Source: Deltaproteobacteria bacterium
Lineage (GTDB): Bacteria > Desulfobacterota > Desulfarculia > JACQYL01
Assembly (NCBI GenBank): GCA_016208165.1
Contig: JACQYL010000123.1
Location: 62,001 to 126,000, forward strand
Direction: 5' to 3'
DNA length: 64,000 nucleotides
Numbering within the stretch: the stretch's first letter is position 1; every line of letters begins with the position of its first letter. The position numbers and the translations under genes were made by a program. The notes under the pieces were generated by a model. That model was not told the origin of the DNA. It searched no databases and worked only from the letters and a program-made list of their open reading frames with translations. Below are positions 7,785-17,449 of the stretch, piece after piece.

Positions 7785-8597
7785 TCACTGGTTGAATCGA
7801 TTCAAGATGGCCTCTGTCACGGATCCGGATATATTCCTCGCCTTATCGGAAATCGTGCTAAGGTAGCCGATATCGCCTCTCGGATCAACGTCCCCAACCT
7901 TCATCCCTTTGCTTACGCGGATTCCCGGGCGGATGAGGCCTCGAAGAACGCCGCTCACAGCCGATGTGACGGGTTTTCCCGCGACCTCGGCCACTTCCTG
8001 ACCCTGCTCTACACGATCCCCGAGCCGGACGTTCGACATAAATATTCCTTCCGCCGGCGACCGCAACACCCGCTCTTTGTCGTACCCGGCGATACTTCCG
8101 GGAACTCCCGTGTCCGGATCGGCGGTTCCCTCGAATATCAGTCGTCCCAGGTTGTGACCTCTGTTGGTCTCAACTACGACGTGTACATCATTGCCCGCTG
8201 TAAATCCGGGTCCCAGTGCGATGACCATTGAGGCGTCGTCCATTGTCAGGCCAAAATTATGCTTACGCAGGGTGGCGTCGATGATCACATCCGGTCTGAA
8301 AGGGGGCGGATCGTAAGGGCCTTGCACGAGAATCGGCAGGCGGCCACTGTCCCGGATCTTTTGCGCATCTTCGATACGGTCAATGCGCACCGCGGTCACG
8401 CCCTCCACTGTCTGAGAACCTTCATACACGGCCTCGCAGAAACTAACGGCTCTCCGGACAGCCAGGGGCTCCTCGATTTCCGTCAGCAGAAGTTTGAAAT
8501 GGCATCTGAATAACCGGTGCGCCGTTGCCGAAGCCATTTCACCGGCTCCGAGAACCAGGATAACGAGGTCTTTCAGAGGTTTTTTCCGGGCATTCAC
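7785..8597 (-). CDS. yqeB: YqeB-type molybdenum hydroxylase accessory protein
   Basis: The 270-residue protein matches the EF2563/YqeB family linked to selenium-dependent molybdenum hydroxylases. It has an N-terminal Rossmann segment (LGAGEMAS, about 16-23), a central VVIDATLRK/ALGPGF region, and a C-terminal beta-rich part (GKPVTSAVSGVLRGLIRPG) resembling a biotinyl/lipoyl-like fold. The family is thought to act in late maturation or cofactor sulfuration; its exact reaction is not established. I chose the GTG at 8597 because it overlaps the stop of the preceding CoxE-like gene (GTGA) and has GAAGGA upstream; a start at 8666 would overlap that gene by 73 bases. It is the last gene of the module. 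Confidence 0.8.
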   Translation of the reverse strand: MNARKKPLKDLVILVLGAGEMASATAHRLFRCHFKLLLTEIEEPLAVRRAVSFCEAVYEGSQTVEGVTAVRIDRIEDAQKIRDSGRLPILVQGPYDPPPFRPDVIIDATLRKHNFGLTMDDASMVIALGPGFTAGNDVHVVVETNRGHNLGRLIFEGTADPDTGVPGSIAGYDKERVLRSPAEGIFMSNVRLGDRVEQGQEVAEVAGKPVTSAVSGVLRGLIRPGIRVSKGMKVGDVDPRGDIGYLSTISDKARNISGSVTEAILNRFNQ

Positions 8598-9787
8598 GAA
8601 TACATCCTTCGTGTTTGAGCCTCGATGGCCCGGACTTCCGTTTCGAGCAGCCTCAAAACCTTCCACAACGTGATCACATTATAGAAAGGGAGAAGCGCGT
8701 CCACGTAAGGCAGCACGGTGCGGATTCCCAGACAGGTCGGAGTATATCCGGGAAAGGCCATCAGAGGATTCAGCCAGAACAGCTTGTTGCAGCTTCGTTT
8801 CATCAGGGACATCTGGTTCTCGAGTTCCTCCGGATCCCCCCGATCCCAACCGTCCCCGGCAATGAACAGCTCGGTTCTCTCCCCACTGAAGCGGGTCGCG
8901 TAGTTCCGGTTGAAATAGCGAAAACAGTTTCCCATATCGGTGCCGCCGCCCCAGTTGAACTCGGAAGACGTCATTTTGTTGAAAATCCGAGGCCATTCCG
9001 AATCCCTGAAGAGCGAGGTCACCTCGGTCAGGCGGGTGGAAAACACAAAGACTCGAGTTCTTGGAACGGACCGAGCCAAAGCGTGACCAAACAGCAAAAA
9101 GAAGCGCCCATAGGCGTCCATCGAGCCGCTGATGTCGAGCAGCAGGTGAATGCGGGTCTTGCGACGCTTCCTGCGCTTGAACTTCAGTTCCACGGGTTCT
9201 CCCCAGGATCGGAAAGACTTGCGCATGGTGCGGGCAAAGTCGAGTTTTCCGGGCTTGGCCGAGCATCGGCTCCTTCGGCTTATTCGGGTTCCTATGACGC
9301 GGGCGAGTTGCTTCACCGCCTGCTCGACAGAAAACAGTTCCTCCGCTGAAAGATCCTGAAACGGTTTTTCCGCCGTGTTTTCTTCCAACCCGGCCCGAAA
9401 AAGAGCTAGCTGAAGCTGATCGGAGTCCTGGGGCGCCACCCCCAAAATCTCGGGGAACACGGGGGTGCGAGGCTTCGCTTCGGCGCCCTTTTCAGCATCG
9501 GATTCGTCCGAGTCGTCCGGAGGTCGACGGCGCCAGTAAGCATCGAAGAGTCTGTAAAACAGCTCCAAATCCCGGCGATTGGAGACGAGAACGCACGCCA
9601 GCAGTTCTTTGAATTGGGCCCGCCGGCCTATTTCTACATGCTCCAGTCCTTGAATGGCGTCTACAACGCGACCCGTGGTCACGGGAATGCCGTGAGAGCG
9701 CAACACCCGTCCGAATTGAATCACACGGGTCGTCAGTCCTGATTCAATCGAATGCTGTTGCGGTTCTTTCGATACCGGTGAAGCCAT
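8594..9787 (-). CDS. CoxE-like VWA-domain protein
   Basis: The 397-residue soluble protein has a charged N-terminal half and a C-terminal von Willebrand A domain. The MIDAS metal site is seen as DISGSMD near residue 218 and the conserved Thr in GGGTDMG near 285. This layout matches CoxE, which works with a MoxR-type AAA+ ATPase (CoxD) in maturing the molybdenum/copper site of CO dehydrogenase and related hydroxylases. The MoxR gene lies immediately upstream (63-base gap), and the downstream yqeB start overlaps its stop codon, so the three are probably cotranscribed. The target enzyme is not in the window. Confidence 0.85.
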   Translation of the reverse strand: MASPVSKEPQQHSIESGLTTRVIQFGRVLRSHGIPVTTGRVVDAIQGLEHVEIGRRAQFKELLACVLVSNRRDLELFYRLFDAYWRRRPPDDSDESDAEKGAEAKPRTPVFPEILGVAPQDSDQLQLALFRAGLEENTAEKPFQDLSAEELFSVEQAVKQLARVIGTRISRRSRCSAKPGKLDFARTMRKSFRSWGEPVELKFKRRKRRKTRIHLLLDISGSMDAYGRFFLLFGHALARSVPRTRVFVFSTRLTEVTSLFRDSEWPRIFNKMTSSEFNWGGGTDMGNCFRYFNRNYATRFSGERTELFIAGDGWDRGDPEELENQMSLMKRSCNKLFWLNPLMAFPGYTPTCLGIRTVLPYVDALLPFYNVITLWKVLRLLETEVRAIEAQTRRMYS

Positions 9788-9850
9788 TAGAAAAGGAATG
9801 CTCCAACGAGTCAGGCGGGTCGCTTCCCGCTTGACGCCTGCGGCCTGAAT

Positions 9851-10747
9851 CTAACCGGCGGAAGTCGGGCTAGGGTCCGACATGATTTCGGTGACGCACT
9901 GGTCGAAACGCTGGAGGTCTTCCCGGTATTTGAATACACAGGCCAGAGTCTCGGATACGGTTTTTGCGTCCAGGTGCTCTCGATGCAGGGTGACAAGCGC
10001 TTCCGCCCAGTCCAGCGATTCCGCCACGCCCGGACGTTTGATGAAGTCCATGGATCGGACTTTCTTCATAAATTCGGAAATCTGCCGCGCCAAATGCTCG
10101 TTCACGTGGGGTAGCCGTAACCGGATAATTTCCATTTCTTTTTCCAGCGTCGGATACTCGATCCAGTGATAGAGGCAGCGCCGTTTCAGTGCTTCGTGCA
10201 CCTCGCGGGTGCGGTTCGAAGTGATAACCACCAGCGGGGAGTCCTTGGCTCGAATGGTTCCGATTTCCGGGATGGTCACCTGAAATTCCGACAGGAACTC
10301 GAGCAGAAATGCTTCGAACTCGTCGTCCGCGCGGTCGATCTCATCGATCAGAAGCACGGGAGGCTCGCCTCGGGCGCCGCTCTGAACCGCATCCAGCAAG
10401 GGACGACCGATCAGAAAGTCGGGGGTGAAAATATCGGTCCAATCGCCGGGCCCGCATCGTTTTTCCTGATCCATCCTTACCTGAAGCAACTGTTTGGGGT
10501 AGTTCCATTCGTACAGAGCGCTGCTCTGATCCAGCCCTTCATAACATTGGAGCCGAATCAGCCTTCGCTTCAAAGCCTCGGATAATACCTTACCCACTTC
10601 CGTTTTGCCGACCCCTGTTTCTCCTTCGAGAAAAAGGGGTTTCTTCAATTTCAAAGAAAGGTAGATCACTGTGGCGAGGCGTTCATCGGCCACATACAGG
10701 TGGGAACTCAACAGCGTTTGCACTTGCTCGATGGATTCCATCCGCAT
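9851..10747 (-). CDS. MoxR/CoxD-type AAA+ ATPase
   Basis: The 298-residue protein carries Walker A GETGVGKT (about 42-49), Walker B LLIDEID (about 131) and a sensor-1 region VVITSNRTRE (about 174), as in MoxR-family ATPases. These act with VWA-domain partners as chaperones that insert or remodel metal cofactors; the adjacent CoxE-like gene fits that pairing. The ATG at 10747 lies four bases after the stop of the upstream MoeA-like gene, with GGAAAG seven bases before it, so translation is probably coupled; a longer reading frame to 10813 would overlap that gene. Its family is clear; assignment as CoxD rests on context. Confidence 0.88.
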   Translation of the reverse strand: MRMESIEQVQTLLSSHLYVADERLATVIYLSLKLKKPLFLEGETGVGKTEVGKVLSEALKRRLIRLQCYEGLDQSSALYEWNYPKQLLQVRMDQEKRCGPGDWTDIFTPDFLIGRPLLDAVQSGARGEPPVLLIDEIDRADDEFEAFLLEFLSEFQVTIPEIGTIRAKDSPLVVITSNRTREVHEALKRRCLYHWIEYPTLEKEMEIIRLRLPHVNEHLARQISEFMKKVRSMDFIKRPGVAESLDWAEALVTLHREHLDAKTVSETLACVFKYREDLQRFDQCVTEIMSDPSPTSAG

Positions 10748-10751
10748 AGGG

Positions 10752-11771
10752 TTACTTTCCAAAGCCACACACCGGATAACGGCATTCTTCACAATTCCTG
10801 CAGTACCCCCCATGACCGAGCGCAGCTACCTGTTCCTTCTTTATGTTTTCTCCGGCCAGAATGCGAGGGAAAAACACATCGAAGGCCGTGGTCTTATGGA
10901 AAAAAACGCACGCCGGCAATCCCAGAATAGCCGTTTCTCCCAATCGGGCGTATAGGAACATGGCTCCGGGCAAAATGGGGGTGCCGTAAAAGACGACCTG
11001 GGCCCCAGCTTGTTTCACCCCCATAACCGTCGCATCGTCCGGGTCCACGGACAGACCGGCGGTTATCAGAATGATGTCCATGCCGTGCTCTTTCAGCCGT
11101 CGGATGTTGGAGGAGATCTCCTCCGGATCGTCTCGAGCCATACGCTTTTCCAGAACCACCTGTCCGTATCCGCCGACCTTCGCACCCACGGACTCATCGA
11201 AGCCGTCCCTGATCCGGCCTTCAACGATCTCGGTCCCCGTGACAAGCGCCCCTACGTGCTTATGCAAGTAAGGCATCACTCGGATAATCTTATCCTCCCT
11301 TGCGCAGGTTGTCTCAATCTCGGAGATGACGGTTTCAGGTATGGTCAGAGGGATAATCCGTGTGGCTCCTACTTGCTCATCGGGTTTGACCGGCGTGTAG
11401 GTGTGGAGCGTGGACAACATCACGTCTTCTGTCAGGTTGATTCTCGTCAACGCGTCAACGCGAATTTTCAGTAAGCCGTTTACACGGCTCACGAAAGTGA
11501 CTTTACCCTCTTTCGGACCCACAAGATCAATGTCCTCCGCTGCAAAGGCCCGTGCAAGTCTTACCCCTGCTTCGTCTTCGTGGATATAGCCTTCGGGCAT
11601 TTCCATCACATAGATGGAATATTTGCCGATGGAGAGAAGTTCCTCGACATCCTGTTCGGAAATAATGTGGCCTTTTCGGAAAGCCACACCCTTGAATGAG
11701 CCGGGAATGATCTTGGTTACATCATGCCCGAGAGGTCTTCCCACTGCGTCCTGCGTAGCTATCTTTCGCAT
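10752..11771 (-). CDS. Molybdopterin-binding (MoeA/MoaB-like) protein with C-terminal Cys cluster
   Basis: The 339-residue protein has a MoCF-biosynthesis (MoeA/MogA-type) fold in its second half: TGTEIVEGRIRDGF near 175, the alternating strand/helix pattern, and ITAGLSVDPDDAT near 236 in place of the usual TGG-S-D motif. The N-terminal half (GHDVTKIIPGSFKG) resembles MoeA-like proteins that accompany xanthine-dehydrogenase-type enzymes. The C-terminus carries four cysteines in C-x2-C-x2-C-x4-C (residues 324, 327, 330, 335), suggesting metal or Fe-S binding; that is inference. It heads the module. AGGGGGA lies about 11 bases before the ATG. It most likely binds molybdopterin for hydroxylase maturation. 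Confidence 0.82.
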   Translation of the reverse strand: MRKIATQDAVGRPLGHDVTKIIPGSFKGVAFRKGHIISEQDVEELLSIGKYSIYVMEMPEGYIHEDEAGVRLARAFAAEDIDLVGPKEGKVTFVSRVNGLLKIRVDALTRINLTEDVMLSTLHTYTPVKPDEQVGATRIIPLTIPETVISEIETTCAREDKIIRVMPYLHKHVGALVTGTEIVEGRIRDGFDESVGAKVGGYGQVVLEKRMARDDPEEISSNIRRLKEHGMDIILITAGLSVDPDDATVMGVKQAGAQVVFYGTPILPGAMFLYARLGETAILGLPACVFFHKTTAFDVFFPRILAGENIKKEQVAALGHGGYCRNCEECRYPVCGFGK

Positions 11772-13824: not shown

Positions 13825-16422
13825 TCATTCCATTTTGATGTGCAAGGTGACTTCCAGTGAGCCGTAGTCGGCTTCGAAAGGGCGGCTCTCGGTGACGATC
13901 CCTGGAAGTCCCTGAATGATGCAAGCGTCCGTGTCCCGTTCTCCGCTGCCTTGCGAAATCGTCGCCCCAATTACTGTGCCGTACCCGTCGACTTCGACCC
14001 TGAACGTCAGCGCTGCGGGAGAAGAGGCGCATCGTTCTGCGGCGGGCCGGACGGAGTCTCGGACGGCCTTCTCTAACGCCGTCGGATTTTCCAGGTTATT
14101 TGAGGTAAATAGAAAAAACGTTTCCACGACCTTTGGCGTTTCTCGTACGGCCTCGTCCGCAGGCGGCTCGCCGGTAAGCTCCGACGTCTCCTGAGCCTGC
14201 TGCCGGATGCTGCCGGCTATCGCCGCGACTTCAGGCGACAAAGGCTTGCGTGTCTTTGAAGATGGAAACTGATCTTTGATACCGCTTTCAGGCTCCGATT
14301 GTGACGGTCTTCGAGACGACGGGAGGGTTTGCTTCATCGGCTGGGTGCTTCCGTCTGCGTGTCCCATTTGGTAGTCAGCCGCCATCAACCGGGTAACAGT
14401 CGCAGGCAGATCATGGCAAAGGCCTAATCGGGTTACAGCCTCCTCGAGTTCCTTCACATGCGGCAACAAGAGGTACTGATCCTCGAGGAGTTCCAGCCAC
14501 TTCCGGGCCCACAGTTCCACAATGGGAGCGTTTTCCGGTCCGGCAATGAACGGAGAAGCTTCGAGACTTTCCAGGTAGCGTTCTTCTCCCGTGAAACCCG
14601 AGATTCGGACACGTCCGGAGGGTGCACCGCGGTATTTTGCGATAACTACAATGGGTCTTTGGGCCATCAAATCGGGTAACTTCATCGGAATTTGATCGTG
14701 GACATCGAACCCTTCGAACGTCACGGAGGCCTGTGTGAGCACCGGGTTCTTGATGTAGGCCCTGAACTTTTCCGCTTCGGCCGCCGCCTGATCCGAACTC
14801 AATGCAACAAAAGGCTTTCCCTGCCCCGCGCGGGCCAAACTTCCTACCAGAGCGCGATTCACGCTCACTCCGATCCCGAAAACGAAAAGATTCGCCTCGT
14901 CGAGATGTTCCCGCACGAACTTGAATACCTGGGCCTCCGCGTCCACGTAACCGTCCGTAATGACCACGAGGGATCGGGAGACGTGACTCTCGGGTCGCGG
15001 GATGGAGTATGCCGCCCGGAGCGCGGTCATGAGGCCTGTTCCATCGTCTCCTGAGGGGCCATCGAGCAAGGATATGGCTTGACGAATGTTTTCTTCGGTC
15101 GCGTTGACCGATCCGCTCGAATTCAAGACCGCCGAGTTTCCCGCGAAAAGCACGACGTTAAGCAAATCTGACGCCTTAAGGTCCATAAGGAGCCGCTCCA
15201 TCAGCACCTTTGCCGTCTCCAGCGGAAATCCCTTCATGGATTCGGACACGTCTATCACGAATATGAATTCGCGGGAAGGAATACGAAAGCCGGAGGGACG
15301 CTCGGGGGGTTCCATAAAAACCGCAATATAGTTCTCCTCCGCCCCTTGATACATCATGACACCGCTCTCGATTTGTACTCCCGCCAACGTATATCGAAGG
15401 ACAAAGTCCTTGTTTCCTTTTCGTTCCTGGTCGAGATGAATCCGCGCGCTGTTCTGGGAACGATAGAACACGGATATTCTGTGGGAAGGAGACGAAATGG
15501 TTTTGATTGGAACCGCGGTGAGTAGTTGCACGGCGATATCGAAATCGTAGGGAACGCTTTCTCCCTTAATAGCATAGCGATTTGGAATCCCTCGCTCACG
15601 GATCGGATCCAGCCTTCCTTCGCGCTCGGATTCGGGCACGGCGGGGAGGGTGAACTCGTACACCTCATTTTGAGGAAAGACGGGTTCGGAATAGTTCAGC
15701 TCCACCTGAACCGAATCACCCGGCATGATATGAACTACGTTCATCAGGAACACGTTCGGCCATTCCTGCTCGATGAAGGAAACGGTTCTATTCTTGGATT
15801 CAGCCTGCTCGAATTGCATGCCGGCTTGATCCCGCTTCTGCATTCGCGCTTCAATGAATCGCTCACCGATGCGCACCCGAACTTCATGAACGGCGGCGCC
15901 TGCGGACGCCGGAAACAGGTAGTCCGCGTCGACGGCATTGGCGCCCGTATTCTGGAACACCTGATGCAACTTGACCTGAGCGATGGGACCCACAATCCGT
16001 ACTTCAGCGTCCATTTTTTTCAGCAGGAGCGAACCTGTTCCCGGATCGCTCCCGCGAGGGAACAGGTTCGGGGCCAATGAAGGTTCGGCCTTTCTACTCT
16101 TCCGATCCACCAGAGAATAGGGGAACCGGACTAGTGATTCTCCCAGTCGAGCATCGGTTCTTTCCAATAACTCGTGTAGATCGTCCGAGTCATTGCATGC
16201 GGATGAGGATTCCGTTCGTTCCGGGATGAAAACCGAGGCGGTAGGGACAGGCATCGACGCTTCCGGGGAAGTCGTTACTTCAAGGCACAGGCCGCGAACC
16301 ACCCAGCCTGTCGATGCCAGAAAGGCCATAAGAAGCCAGACGGCCCAAAGAACGCGTCCGGACATCCACGAACTTGGGCCGGAGCCTCGGTCCGTGTGTT
16401 TCCCGCGGGACACATCACACAT
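13825..16422 (-). CDS. VIT- and VWA-domain membrane-anchored protein with TonB-like C-terminus
   Basis: The 865-residue product has an N-terminal membrane or signal segment (WAVWLLMAFLASTGWVV, about 24-40). A VIT domain follows, about 125-245 (KLHQVFQNTG, ADYLFPASAGAAVHEV, QAESKNRTVSFIEQEWPNVF). A VWA domain begins near 386 (FIFVIDVSESM, a DxSxS MIDAS site). A Pro/Ser-rich linker leads to about 80 C-terminal residues (FRVEVDGYGTVIGATI, ending EVTLHIKME) resembling a TonB/AgmX C-terminal domain. VIT-VWA proteins are surface or periplasmic proteins of unclear role. The start at 16422 has GGAGG six bases upstream and does not overlap znuA; the frame extends further upstream into it. It lies 88 bases after znuA on the same strand. 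Confidence 0.82.
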   Translation of the reverse strand: MCDVSRGKHTDRGSGPSSWMSGRVLWAVWLLMAFLASTGWVVRGLCLEVTTSPEASMPVPTASVFIPERTESSSACNDSDDLHELLERTDARLGESLVRFPYSLVDRKSRKAEPSLAPNLFPRGSDPGTGSLLLKKMDAEVRIVGPIAQVKLHQVFQNTGANAVDADYLFPASAGAAVHEVRVRIGERFIEARMQKRDQAGMQFEQAESKNRTVSFIEQEWPNVFLMNVVHIMPGDSVQVELNYSEPVFPQNEVYEFTLPAVPESEREGRLDPIRERGIPNRYAIKGESVPYDFDIAVQLLTAVPIKTISSPSHRISVFYRSQNSARIHLDQERKGNKDFVLRYTLAGVQIESGVMMYQGAEENYIAVFMEPPERPSGFRIPSREFIFVIDVSESMKGFPLETAKVLMERLLMDLKASDLLNVVLFAGNSAVLNSSGSVNATEENIRQAISLLDGPSGDDGTGLMTALRAAYSIPRPESHVSRSLVVITDGYVDAEAQVFKFVREHLDEANLFVFGIGVSVNRALVGSLARAGQGKPFVALSSDQAAAEAEKFRAYIKNPVLTQASVTFEGFDVHDQIPMKLPDLMAQRPIVVIAKYRGAPSGRVRISGFTGEERYLESLEASPFIAGPENAPIVELWARKWLELLEDQYLLLPHVKELEEAVTRLGLCHDLPATVTRLMAADYQMGHADGSTQPMKQTLPSSRRPSQSEPESGIKDQFPSSKTRKPLSPEVAAIAGSIRQQAQETSELTGEPPADEAVRETPKVVETFFLFTSNNLENPTALEKAVRDSVRPAAERCASSPAALTFRVEVDGYGTVIGATISQGSGERDTDACIIQGLPGIVTESRPFEADYGSLEVTLHIKME

Positions 16423-16510
16423 ATCCGGCCTCCGGTGGATGCAACAGGACGCGGGGCCAGTCGGAAGGGGCTTTTGTGTCGTCAAGCCGCCCCGAGGTTC
16501 CAACATAACG

Positions 16511-17449
16511 CTATCGAAGTTCGGACTCAAATTTTACCGCCAGATCCCTAAGATTTTTCGCCCAGTCGGAGGCAAGAGGATCCGCAAACGCCACGTGTCC
16601 TCCCAGGGCGTTGGCAATCGTATCCGCGCTTCGGGTCGAAAACTGCGGCTGGACGAATACGACCTTGATGTTCTTTGCTTTTGCGCGTTCAATTAATTCC
16701 TTGAGCTGCAACGGCTTAGGTTCTTTGCCTTCAACTTCGACGGGAATCTGCTCCAAGCCGTAGGCCCGGGCGAAATATCCCCAGGCCGGATGGAACACCA
16801 TAAACTCTATTTTTCTCTGTTTTCCAACAAATATGTTTCTGATTTCAGCGTCCAGATCGAGGATTTCAACGGACAGACGCCGGTAGTTGGCCTCGTATGT
16901 GTCTCTATGAGCAGGATCTTCAGCAACCAGCGCGCAAACGATGGCCCGGGACTGGAGAAGGGCCAAAGGGGGGGAGAGCCATGTATGCGGATCGCTGACG
17001 CCATGAGTATGCTGTTGGTCATGGGTCGTTTTCGGAGCTTCCATTGAAGGCCCGCCGGTGCGGTCCTCTTTTTCATCATGCGGGTGGTGTTCCTCTTCCA
17101 TGGGGAACTTGCGGATGTCGGCGTCCGTGTGAACGATCTTCATGTCCGGGTTGACGGCCTGGAACCGATCGAGCCAAACGGTTTCAAATTCGATGCCCAC
17201 AGCGAAATAGATCTTGGCCCTGGAAAGAGCGATCATCTGTTTCGGCTTGGGCTCGTAAGTATGGGGTTGGGCGCCGGGCTCGACCATCACCCAGGTTTCA
17301 ACGAGCCCTTCGCCTATCTTGTTCACAAAATAGGCCTGGGGAGCAATGCTGACAAATACGGGCATCCGTTGAGCCGCCCCCGTTATTGTGGGAGACGCTA
17401 AAATAAGTAATAACGCAGCTGTGTTCATCGCCAAGCGAATCCGTCTCAT
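16511..17449 (-). CDS. Zinc/manganese ABC transporter substrate-binding protein (ZnuA-like)
   Basis: The 312-residue protein has a signal peptide (about 1-26) and the cluster A-I solute-binding fold. Metal ligands are His63 (QPHTYEP), a His in DPHTWLSP, a His in FHPAWGYFARAYG, and an Asp in FADPL near the C-terminus. A His/Asp/Glu-rich loop near residues 115-150 (EEEHHPHDEK, HDQQHTHG) is typical of zinc-specific ZnuA. It would bind zinc in the periplasm and pass it to an ABC permease, but no permease or ATPase genes lie next to it, so it is an orphan here. GAGGAGGG lies seven bases before the ATG; a Zur-like dyad lies at 17523-17539. Confidence 0.88.
   Translation of the reverse strand: MRRIRLAMNTAALLLILASPTITGAAQRMPVFVSIAPQAYFVNKIGEGLVETWVMVEPGAQPHTYEPKPKQMIALSRAKIYFAVGIEFETVWLDRFQAVNPDMKIVHTDADIRKFPMEEEHHPHDEKEDRTGGPSMEAPKTTHDQQHTHGVSDPHTWLSPPLALLQSRAIVCALVAEDPAHRDTYEANYRRLSVEILDLDAEIRNIFVGKQRKIEFMVFHPAWGYFARAYGLEQIPVEVEGKEPKPLQLKELIERAKAKNIKVVFVQPQFSTRSADTIANALGGHVAFADPLASDWAKNLRDLAVKFESELR

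Follow-up and report, generated by a model that had tools for sequence, protein, structure and literature searches.

YqeB in one operon with CoxD- and CoxE-like proteins: a probable late maturation module for selenium-type molybdenum hydroxylases encoded elsewhere in the genome

The entry of labile selenium into molybdenum hydroxylases is regarded as the least understood of the selenium pathways in a 2024 paper on C. difficile (PMC11448449; this source as well as PMC2276186, PMC2997495, PMC4240915 and PMC13036017 are cited from excerpts). The proteins listed for this trait by Haft and Self in 2008 are YqeB, YqeC, YgfJ and SelD, and MoxR or VWA proteins are not among them in the excerpt (PMC2276186). 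On xanthine and urate, C. difficile lacking yqeB resembles selD mutants; the effect of yqeC is small (PMC11448449). Pairs of a MoxR ATPase and a VWA protein have been described in other maturation systems: CoxD is reportedly needed for the ATP-dependent sulfuration of molybdenum in CO dehydrogenase, acting on the folded apoenzyme (PMC4240915), and the NorQ/NorD pairing inserts metal by twisting a linker (PMC13036017). Here we analyse a stretch of 64,000 nucleotides (the window; assembly GCA_016208165.1, contig JACQYL010000123.1, positions 62,001 to 126,000) in which one minus-strand operon encodes, in order of transcription, a MoeA-fold protein with a Cys tail, a CoxD-like MoxR ATPase, a CoxE-like VWA protein and YqeB. 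This operon probably functions in the late maturation of selenium-type molybdenum hydroxylases of the xanthine oxidase family; its clients would be encoded outside the window and be served in trans. No link between YqeB and MoxR or CoxE was found among the open-licence papers listed, of which PMC2997495 names both, separately, and no mention of MoxR, VWA or CoxE was found in the comparative paper PMC5322559. The genes and their motifs are located as follows:

10752..11771, minus strand: MoeA-fold protein with a C-terminal four-Cys tail (named MoeA4C here), 339 amino acids, first gene of the operon (PF00994, 60 bits; Foldseek; tail kept in 40/46 homologues)
10767..10802, minus strand: Cys tail of MoeA4C, Cys 324, 327, 330 and 335 in GHGGYCRNCEECRYPVCGFGK, each present in 40/46 rows
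9851..10747 (open reading frame to 10813), minus strand: CoxD-like MoxR AAA+ ATPase (AAA_5, PF07728; start from the junction sequence)
10601..10624, minus strand: Walker A motif GETGVGKT of the CoxD-like ATPase, from the translation, conserved in the 14-row CoxD alignment
8594..9787, minus strand: CoxE-like VWA protein, 397 amino acids (PF05762, E 2.7e-55; 12-row alignment)
8852..9136, minus strand: VWA stretch of CoxE from D218-x-S220-x-S222 to D312, residues resembling a metal-ion-dependent adhesion site (MIDAS), invariant in 12/12 rows
7785..8597 (open reading frame to 8666), minus strand: YqeB (TIGR03309, 327 bits, cut-off 220; model with a mean pLDDT of 88; start from the junction sequence)

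The original prediction had placed the four open reading frames at 7785-11771 on the minus strand, where they were indeed located, and had described them as tightly packed. The gap of 63 nucleotides between CoxD and CoxE and the single overlap are borne out, while the gap between MoeA4C and CoxD measures 4 nucleotides and not 3. Start codons were chosen from ribosome-binding sites and homologues, such that CoxD likely starts with the ATG at 10747, behind GGAAAG, and YqeB with the GTG at 8597, overlapping CoxE by the 4 nucleotides GTGA. A 4-nucleotide CoxE/YqeB overlap is present in the relative G031 (locus L065) too; the long overlaps between the open reading frames are start-codon artefacts. 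A tRNA-Pro gene lies upstream of the operon. An Rfam search of the window at gathering thresholds gave tRNA only, with no molybdenum cofactor riboswitch or other riboswitch, and promoter and terminator scans of the window remained at chance level.

Co-occurrence was assessed by Fisher tests, with relatedness ignored, in 118 genomes of relatives, including the window's own genome (G000; 5.69 Mb, 95.5% complete, 4.4% contaminated). YqeB is present in 40 of these genomes, two weak matches having been dropped, and YqeC in 42, with 37 genomes common to both (p 1e-21). Large subunits of molybdenum hydroxylases (PF02738) occur in 74 genomes and in 39 of the 40 that encode YqeB (p 1.5e-9). Close CoxE homologues (E < 1e-45, the next match being at 1e-29) were found in 12 genomes, all of which also have YqeB (p 6.5e-7, and p 2e-4 when only the 74 genomes that encode molybdenum hydroxylases are counted), whereas a MadC-like VWA protein is found in 13 genomes and accompanied by YqeB in four of them (p 1). 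This difference bears on the possibility that the window pair forms a MadB/MadC-type system of different function and stands beside YqeB by chance. The best NCBIfam models for the two proteins are in fact those of MadB and MadC, but both cut-offs are missed by far (273.9 of 475 bits for NF047784 and 80.9 of 600 bits for NF047783), and a second MoxR/VWA pair elsewhere in G000 (contig C119, L113:6677-8987) is closer to MadB/MadC (313 of 475 and 139 of 600 bits). Since YqeB is linked to the CoxE type and not to the MadC-like one, a MadB/MadC function of the window pair is very unlikely.

The joining of CoxD/CoxE and YqeB in one operon, which had been remarked upon in the original prediction, recurs in relatives and in other phyla and is not an oddity of G000. 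Among the 40 YqeB regions of the relatives, the window included, MoeA4C directly adjoins YqeB in 11, and CoxD or CoxE lies within 3 kb of YqeB in six (the window, L042, L044, L048, L065 and L068; the L042 and L044 regions end at contig ends). The order CoxD-CoxE-YqeB is common to the window, L065 and L068. In L044 (G080) MoeA4C, YqeB, XdhC and CoxD stand in a row, which is the window's set in another order, and in L048 (G029) flavin adenine dinucleotide (FAD), iron-sulfur and molybdenum subunits are followed by CoxE and then by CoxD and YqeB-XdhC back to back. The order MoeA4C, YqeB, YqeC, XdhC, found in L039, L040 and L063, is typical elsewhere. Conservation of the four-gene order, proposed earlier as a check, therefore holds for the gene set, which recurs in other orders, but not for the exact order, which was not seen elsewhere.

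In addition, 84,980 species genomes were scanned with an alignment of six rows, all of them CoxE; the best 80 of 573 confirmed places were used. YqeB adjoins CoxDE in 11 of these best 80 of 573 loci, in several gene orders and phyla: nine loci (L138, L139, L141, L149, L156, L166, L169, L172 and L202; titled Deltaproteobacteria, Candidatus Binatia and Syntrophobacter) have YqeB-CoxD-CoxE-XdhC, L142 (Desulfocarbo indianensis) has CoxD-CoxE-YqeB and L177 (Dehalococcoidia) has YqeB-YqeC-XdhC-CoxD-CoxE. The YqeB proteins of L138 and L177 pass the NCBIfam cut-off with 348 and 366 bits. No single locus argues more clearly than L177 for joint action of CoxDE and the genes of the selenium trait: one strand carries a partial large subunit, FAD, large and iron-sulfur subunits, YgfJ (189.6 bits, cut-off 186.45), YqeB, YqeC (160.8 bits), XdhC, CoxD and CoxE. 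YqeB is above the cut-off in 22 of the 50 genomes behind these CoxE loci and adjoins CoxDE in 10 of the 22, compared to 0.11 expected at random. Both the co-occurrence and the adjacency of CoxDE and YqeB are well above chance. In a quick tree built from 89 CoxE rows, those adjacent to YqeB are scattered, being placed with the window, G031 and G012, with G029 and G025, in a Binatota-type clade and at L177. The adjacency changes 12 times on this tree, an upper estimate, as contig ends hide some neighbours; at least 10 of the changes are forced by starred branches, and 97 of 500 shuffles gave a count as low. Eight Poribacteria CoxE loci (L164, L181, L182, L195, L201, L206, L207 and L214) have no CoxD within the fetched flank.

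According to the original prediction, the operon is a maturation module for molybdenum hydroxylases that joins CoxD/CoxE with YqeB and is without its enzyme. The first part is supported by the linkage described above, but the second is true of the window only. Local hidden Markov models matched no large, FAD or iron-sulfur subunit of a molybdenum hydroxylase in the 64 kb, whereas PF02738 large subunits, on whose presence in the genome the prediction depended, were found at 11 places on 11 other contigs of G000, all above the cut-off, which rules out that the enzyme is missing. The pieces on C23 and C60 are near-identical, lie at contig ends and possibly belong to one gene, so that the number of genes is 10 or 11. 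No gene for CoxD, CoxE, YqeB, MoeA4C or XdhC was found near the large subunits at any of the 11 fetched loci, and the accessory proteins must therefore act in trans. The lack of an enzyme in the window might also be taken as the mark of a decayed remnant, an operon that fell out of use after the loss of its enzyme; with four intact frames, tight junctions, conserved motifs and many candidate clients in G000, this is hardly credible.

The genes of the selenium trait are likewise found on other contigs of G000. YqeC (G000:C67:22451-23098, 178 bits, cut-off 73) is fused behind a YgfJ-like domain, which scores 150.3 bits with the YgfJ model TIGR03310 and lies below its cut-off of 186.45, and SelD is encoded at G000:C58:98453-99280 (362.5 bits, cut-off 125). 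All components of the selenium cofactor trait as described so far thus occur in G000, YgfJ in the form of a YgfJ-like domain; they are scattered over the genome, with the window operon as one of the sites. Features in common with the trait of Haft and Self (PMC2276186, excerpt) are a YqeB above the cut-off, YqeC, here fused to a YgfJ-like domain, SelD and molybdenum hydroxylases. In G000, by contrast, the operon partners of YqeB are a MoxR ATPase, a VWA protein and MoeA4C, none of which the excerpt counts as an accessory protein, and the genes for YqeC and SelD lie on contigs other than that of the window. A search for selD and selenouridine genes, suggested earlier, thus gave SelD, but no selenouridine synthase YbbB above threshold in G000. 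The SelD genes of most relatives carry one in-frame TGA, and by appearance encode a selenocysteine SelD, whereas that of G000 has none. SelA of G000 (G000:C48:84608-85842) is apparently in two pieces, matching model positions 1-50 and 100-454, possibly owing to a frame break in this selenocysteine gene. The YgfJ-like/YqeC fusion (L092:8256-11151, on C67) shares 11 nucleotides with the gene of a fused AmmeMemoRadiSam system B/A protein, and a cluster-mate (c61) of the latter protein is found near MoeA4C-YqeB-YqeC in L071; this uncharacterised system is possibly linked to the selenium trait.

A link to an enzyme of known selenium type leads to nicotinate dehydrogenase of Eubacterium barkeri (3HRD); nicotinate dehydrogenase is cited as having a molybdenum-selenium site (PMC11448449). 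At the Desulfocarbo locus L068, genes for a FAD subunit, for an iron-sulfur/molybdenum N-terminal half and for a separate molybdenum C-terminal half are followed by 2-oxoacid oxidoreductase-like genes (assigned by cluster) and by CoxD-CoxE-YqeB. The N-terminal half has the nicotinate dehydrogenase large subunit 3HRD_A as its best PDB match (397 bits; next, an aldehyde oxidoreductase with 318). In both L068 and the MoeA4C-YqeB locus of G117 (L041) the split lies at about model position 430, and the best PDB matches of the two halves of G117 are 3HRD_A (245 bits, next 185) and 3HRD_B (191 bits, next 171). This link lies in relatives, while in G000 the C23/C60 pieces are merely the rows nearest to the split Desulfocarbo enzyme (tree distance 1.5). 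In a FastTree phylogeny of 41 large subunits, C90 of G000 groups with enzymes of G025, G029, G012 and G082 that lie beside CoxE or YqeB, and C63 with enzymes of G081, G082, G025 and G041 beside CoxDE or YqeB. On this basis C90, C63 and C23/C60 are predicted to be clients of the module. The C63 gene (L085:299-2475) is broken in frame between model positions 502 and 564, which is not a natural split and reflects either a pseudogene or an assembly error.

The same large subunits bear on CO dehydrogenase as a client. The CoxD-like protein is an AAA_5/MoxR-type ATPase whose neighbour is a VWA_CoxE protein, the combination by which a CoxD/CoxE pair is recognised. This arrangement and the tie to xanthine-oxidase-family enzymes are shared with CoxD/CoxE of Oligotropha carboxidovorans, but here no form I CoxL was found, the partner is YqeB, and XdhC is encoded elsewhere in G000. 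None of the 41 large-subunit rows contains AYxCSFR, the motif of form I CoxL; among them are the 11 rows of G000, of which two are cut by contig ends and one is joined over a frame break. No large-subunit row scanned passes a CO dehydrogenase cut-off. Maturation of a copper-molybdenum CO dehydrogenase is thus highly improbable, although no characterised proteins are closer to the pair than CoxD and CoxE (PMC4240915).

A more serious alternative, which we nevertheless consider unlikely, is a general sulfur-type maturation, in which CoxDE and YqeB mature ordinary hydroxylases with a molybdenum-bound sulfur, selenium is not involved and YqeB is another XdhC-like insertase. YqeB is treated as an XdhC homologue in a review (PMC2997495), and CoxDE is found with form-II-like hydroxylases in the absence of YqeB. 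Several further results weigh against a selenium-type module. CoxDE has no adjacent YqeB in 69 of the best 80 CoxE loci, so that the pair is not selenium-specific, and, conversely, YqeB is without CoxDE nearby in 34 of its 40 regions. None of the eight G000 large subunits scanned passes an NCBIfam cut-off, including that for selenium-dependent xanthine dehydrogenase (TIGR03311). SelD adds little as evidence because its background is high (92/118 relatives), for which reason its presence above the cut-off in 44 of the 50 genomes behind the CoxE loci was not used as proof. Three YqeB-containing genomes of the scan (behind L139, L166 and L193) have no SelD above the cut-off, possibly due to gaps in metagenome-assembled genomes. 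Furthermore, the p-values ignore relatedness, and the threshold for close CoxE was set after the gap in E-values had been seen. Against the sulfur-type alternative stand the description of YqeB as restricted to SelD-containing genomes (PMC2276186), the resemblance of the C. difficile yqeB mutant to selD mutants (PMC11448449), the company of YqeC, SelD and YgfJ, the link to a nicotinate-dehydrogenase-like enzyme, and the one XdhC of G000, which is separate from the module. The selenium-type reading is supported by the gene content, the tight junctions, the recurrent CoxDE–YqeB linkage, the co-occurrence with YqeC, SelD and molybdenum hydroxylases, and the linkage to a relative of a selenium enzyme.

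NorQ/NorD, whose client nitric oxide reductase is a heme-copper-type and not a molybdenum enzyme, shares the pairing of a MoxR AAA+ ATPase with a VWA protein and provides a mechanistic model for CoxDE. For the selenium-type module, MoeA4C would hold or hand over the molybdenum-pterin, and the YgfJ-YqeC fusion would give a cytidylated cofactor. CoxD may pull on or twist CoxE and thereby open the folded apo-hydroxylase, after which a terminal sulfur or selenium would be set on the molybdenum of the opened enzyme, comparable to sulfuration by CoxD and metal insertion by NorQ/NorD. SelD would supply selenophosphate, and YqeB, with its Rossmann and biotin-carrier-like domains, would be the selenium-specific factor that directs selenium. 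Opening by CoxDE and direction of selenium by YqeB are proposed because of the reports on CoxD, NorQ/NorD and C. difficile yqeB together with the CoxDE–YqeB linkage; the order of the steps, the ATP-driven opening and selenium as the inserted chalcogen we infer from gene linkage and the literature. As a more tentative extension, CoxD-CoxE might be an ATP-driven machine that puts selenium via YqeB onto the molybdenum of selenium-dependent hydroxylases, and thus provide the insertion step that the third selenium pathway has so far lacked. If so, CoxDE would be a chalcogen insertase, and the partner, of the XdhC/CoxF type or YqeB, would decide between sulfur and selenium. The recurrence of CoxDE–YqeB in distant bacteria suggests how selenium might enter molybdenum enzymes, and connects the selenium pathway with CoxD and NorQD, which have been studied in more depth. 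For YqeB, which has a genetic phenotype without a mechanism, the recurring MoxR/VWA operon link offers a concrete, testable partner. CoxDE together with YqeB could also serve as a marker for further selenium-type hydroxylases, perhaps in anaerobes that degrade aromatic or N-heterocyclic compounds.

The AlphaFold2 model of YqeB combines a Rossmann part similar to dehydrogenases of the glyceraldehyde-3-phosphate dehydrogenase (GAPDH) type with a 65-residue biotin-carrier-like domain at the C-terminus, which matches the biotin carrier 5gu9 over 65 residues (root-mean-square deviation 1.2, Z 9.4). A resemblance to biotin carriers has been raised cautiously before (PMC11448449). VIA-align 2 also ranks GAPDH-like Rossmann enzymes, and no XdhC chain is among the matches listed, which excludes nothing. 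YqeB was considered as a covalent carrier, with which the fold agrees, but a carrier lysine at the hairpin is not kept (Lys231, at a hairpin position judged by eye, is replaced by Q in 12, R in 7 and E in 7 of 51 sequences), and the 51-sequence alignment contains no invariant Cys (Cys77 is present in 31/49). YqeB may therefore more likely bind a nucleotide or pterin than carry selenium on a residue. Three lysines, Lys135, Lys256 and Lys275, are invariant in the 51 sequences.

The only near-invariant thiols among CoxD, YqeB and CoxE are Cys90 and Cys213 of CoxD, found in 12/12 and 14/14 of the rows that have letters there, with the MadB-like paralogue included. In CoxE the MIDAS-like set D218/S220/S222/T283/D312 is invariant in 12/12 rows. 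An in-frame TGA was flagged in four CoxE relatives; upon alignment three are ordinary terminal stops, and in the fourth (G031:C437) a Trp codon has changed in this copy alone, the twin contig having it intact. Selenocysteine in CoxE was therefore rejected. A protein of 901 amino acids with VIT and VWA domains is encoded a few genes from the module (13825-16530 of the window), with a VWA type that is unrelated as far as seen.

The first gene of the operon had been called MoeA/MoaB-like, which is right at the level of the fold, and its C-terminal four-Cys cluster was correctly recognised. PF00994 (MoCF_biosynth) is the sole domain found, and the best Foldseek matches of the model (mean pLDDT 83, the Cys tail being disordered) are MoeA, Cnx1E and the gephyrin E domain (E about 1e-7). 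MoeA4C differs from these proteins in the extra tail and in the KPGKP stretch of MoeA, whose lysines are replaced in all 46 rows, with no Lys as the main residue at 267 or 270; it is not a standard MoeA, as it also misses the MoeA cut-off (PRK10680, 22.3 of 440 bits). MoeA4C is present in 65 genomes of the relatives, 34 of them with YqeB (p 2e-6), but is found in genomes without a molybdenum hydroxylase as well and is therefore more general. It adjoins Mop-type aldehyde oxidoreductases at L126:4166-7997 (NF045668, 1636 bits, cut-off 1100) and, by tree grouping, at L110, L112 and L133, and lies near a tetrathionate-reductase-like enzyme in L116/L121, so that MoeA4C may serve several classes of molybdenum enzymes.

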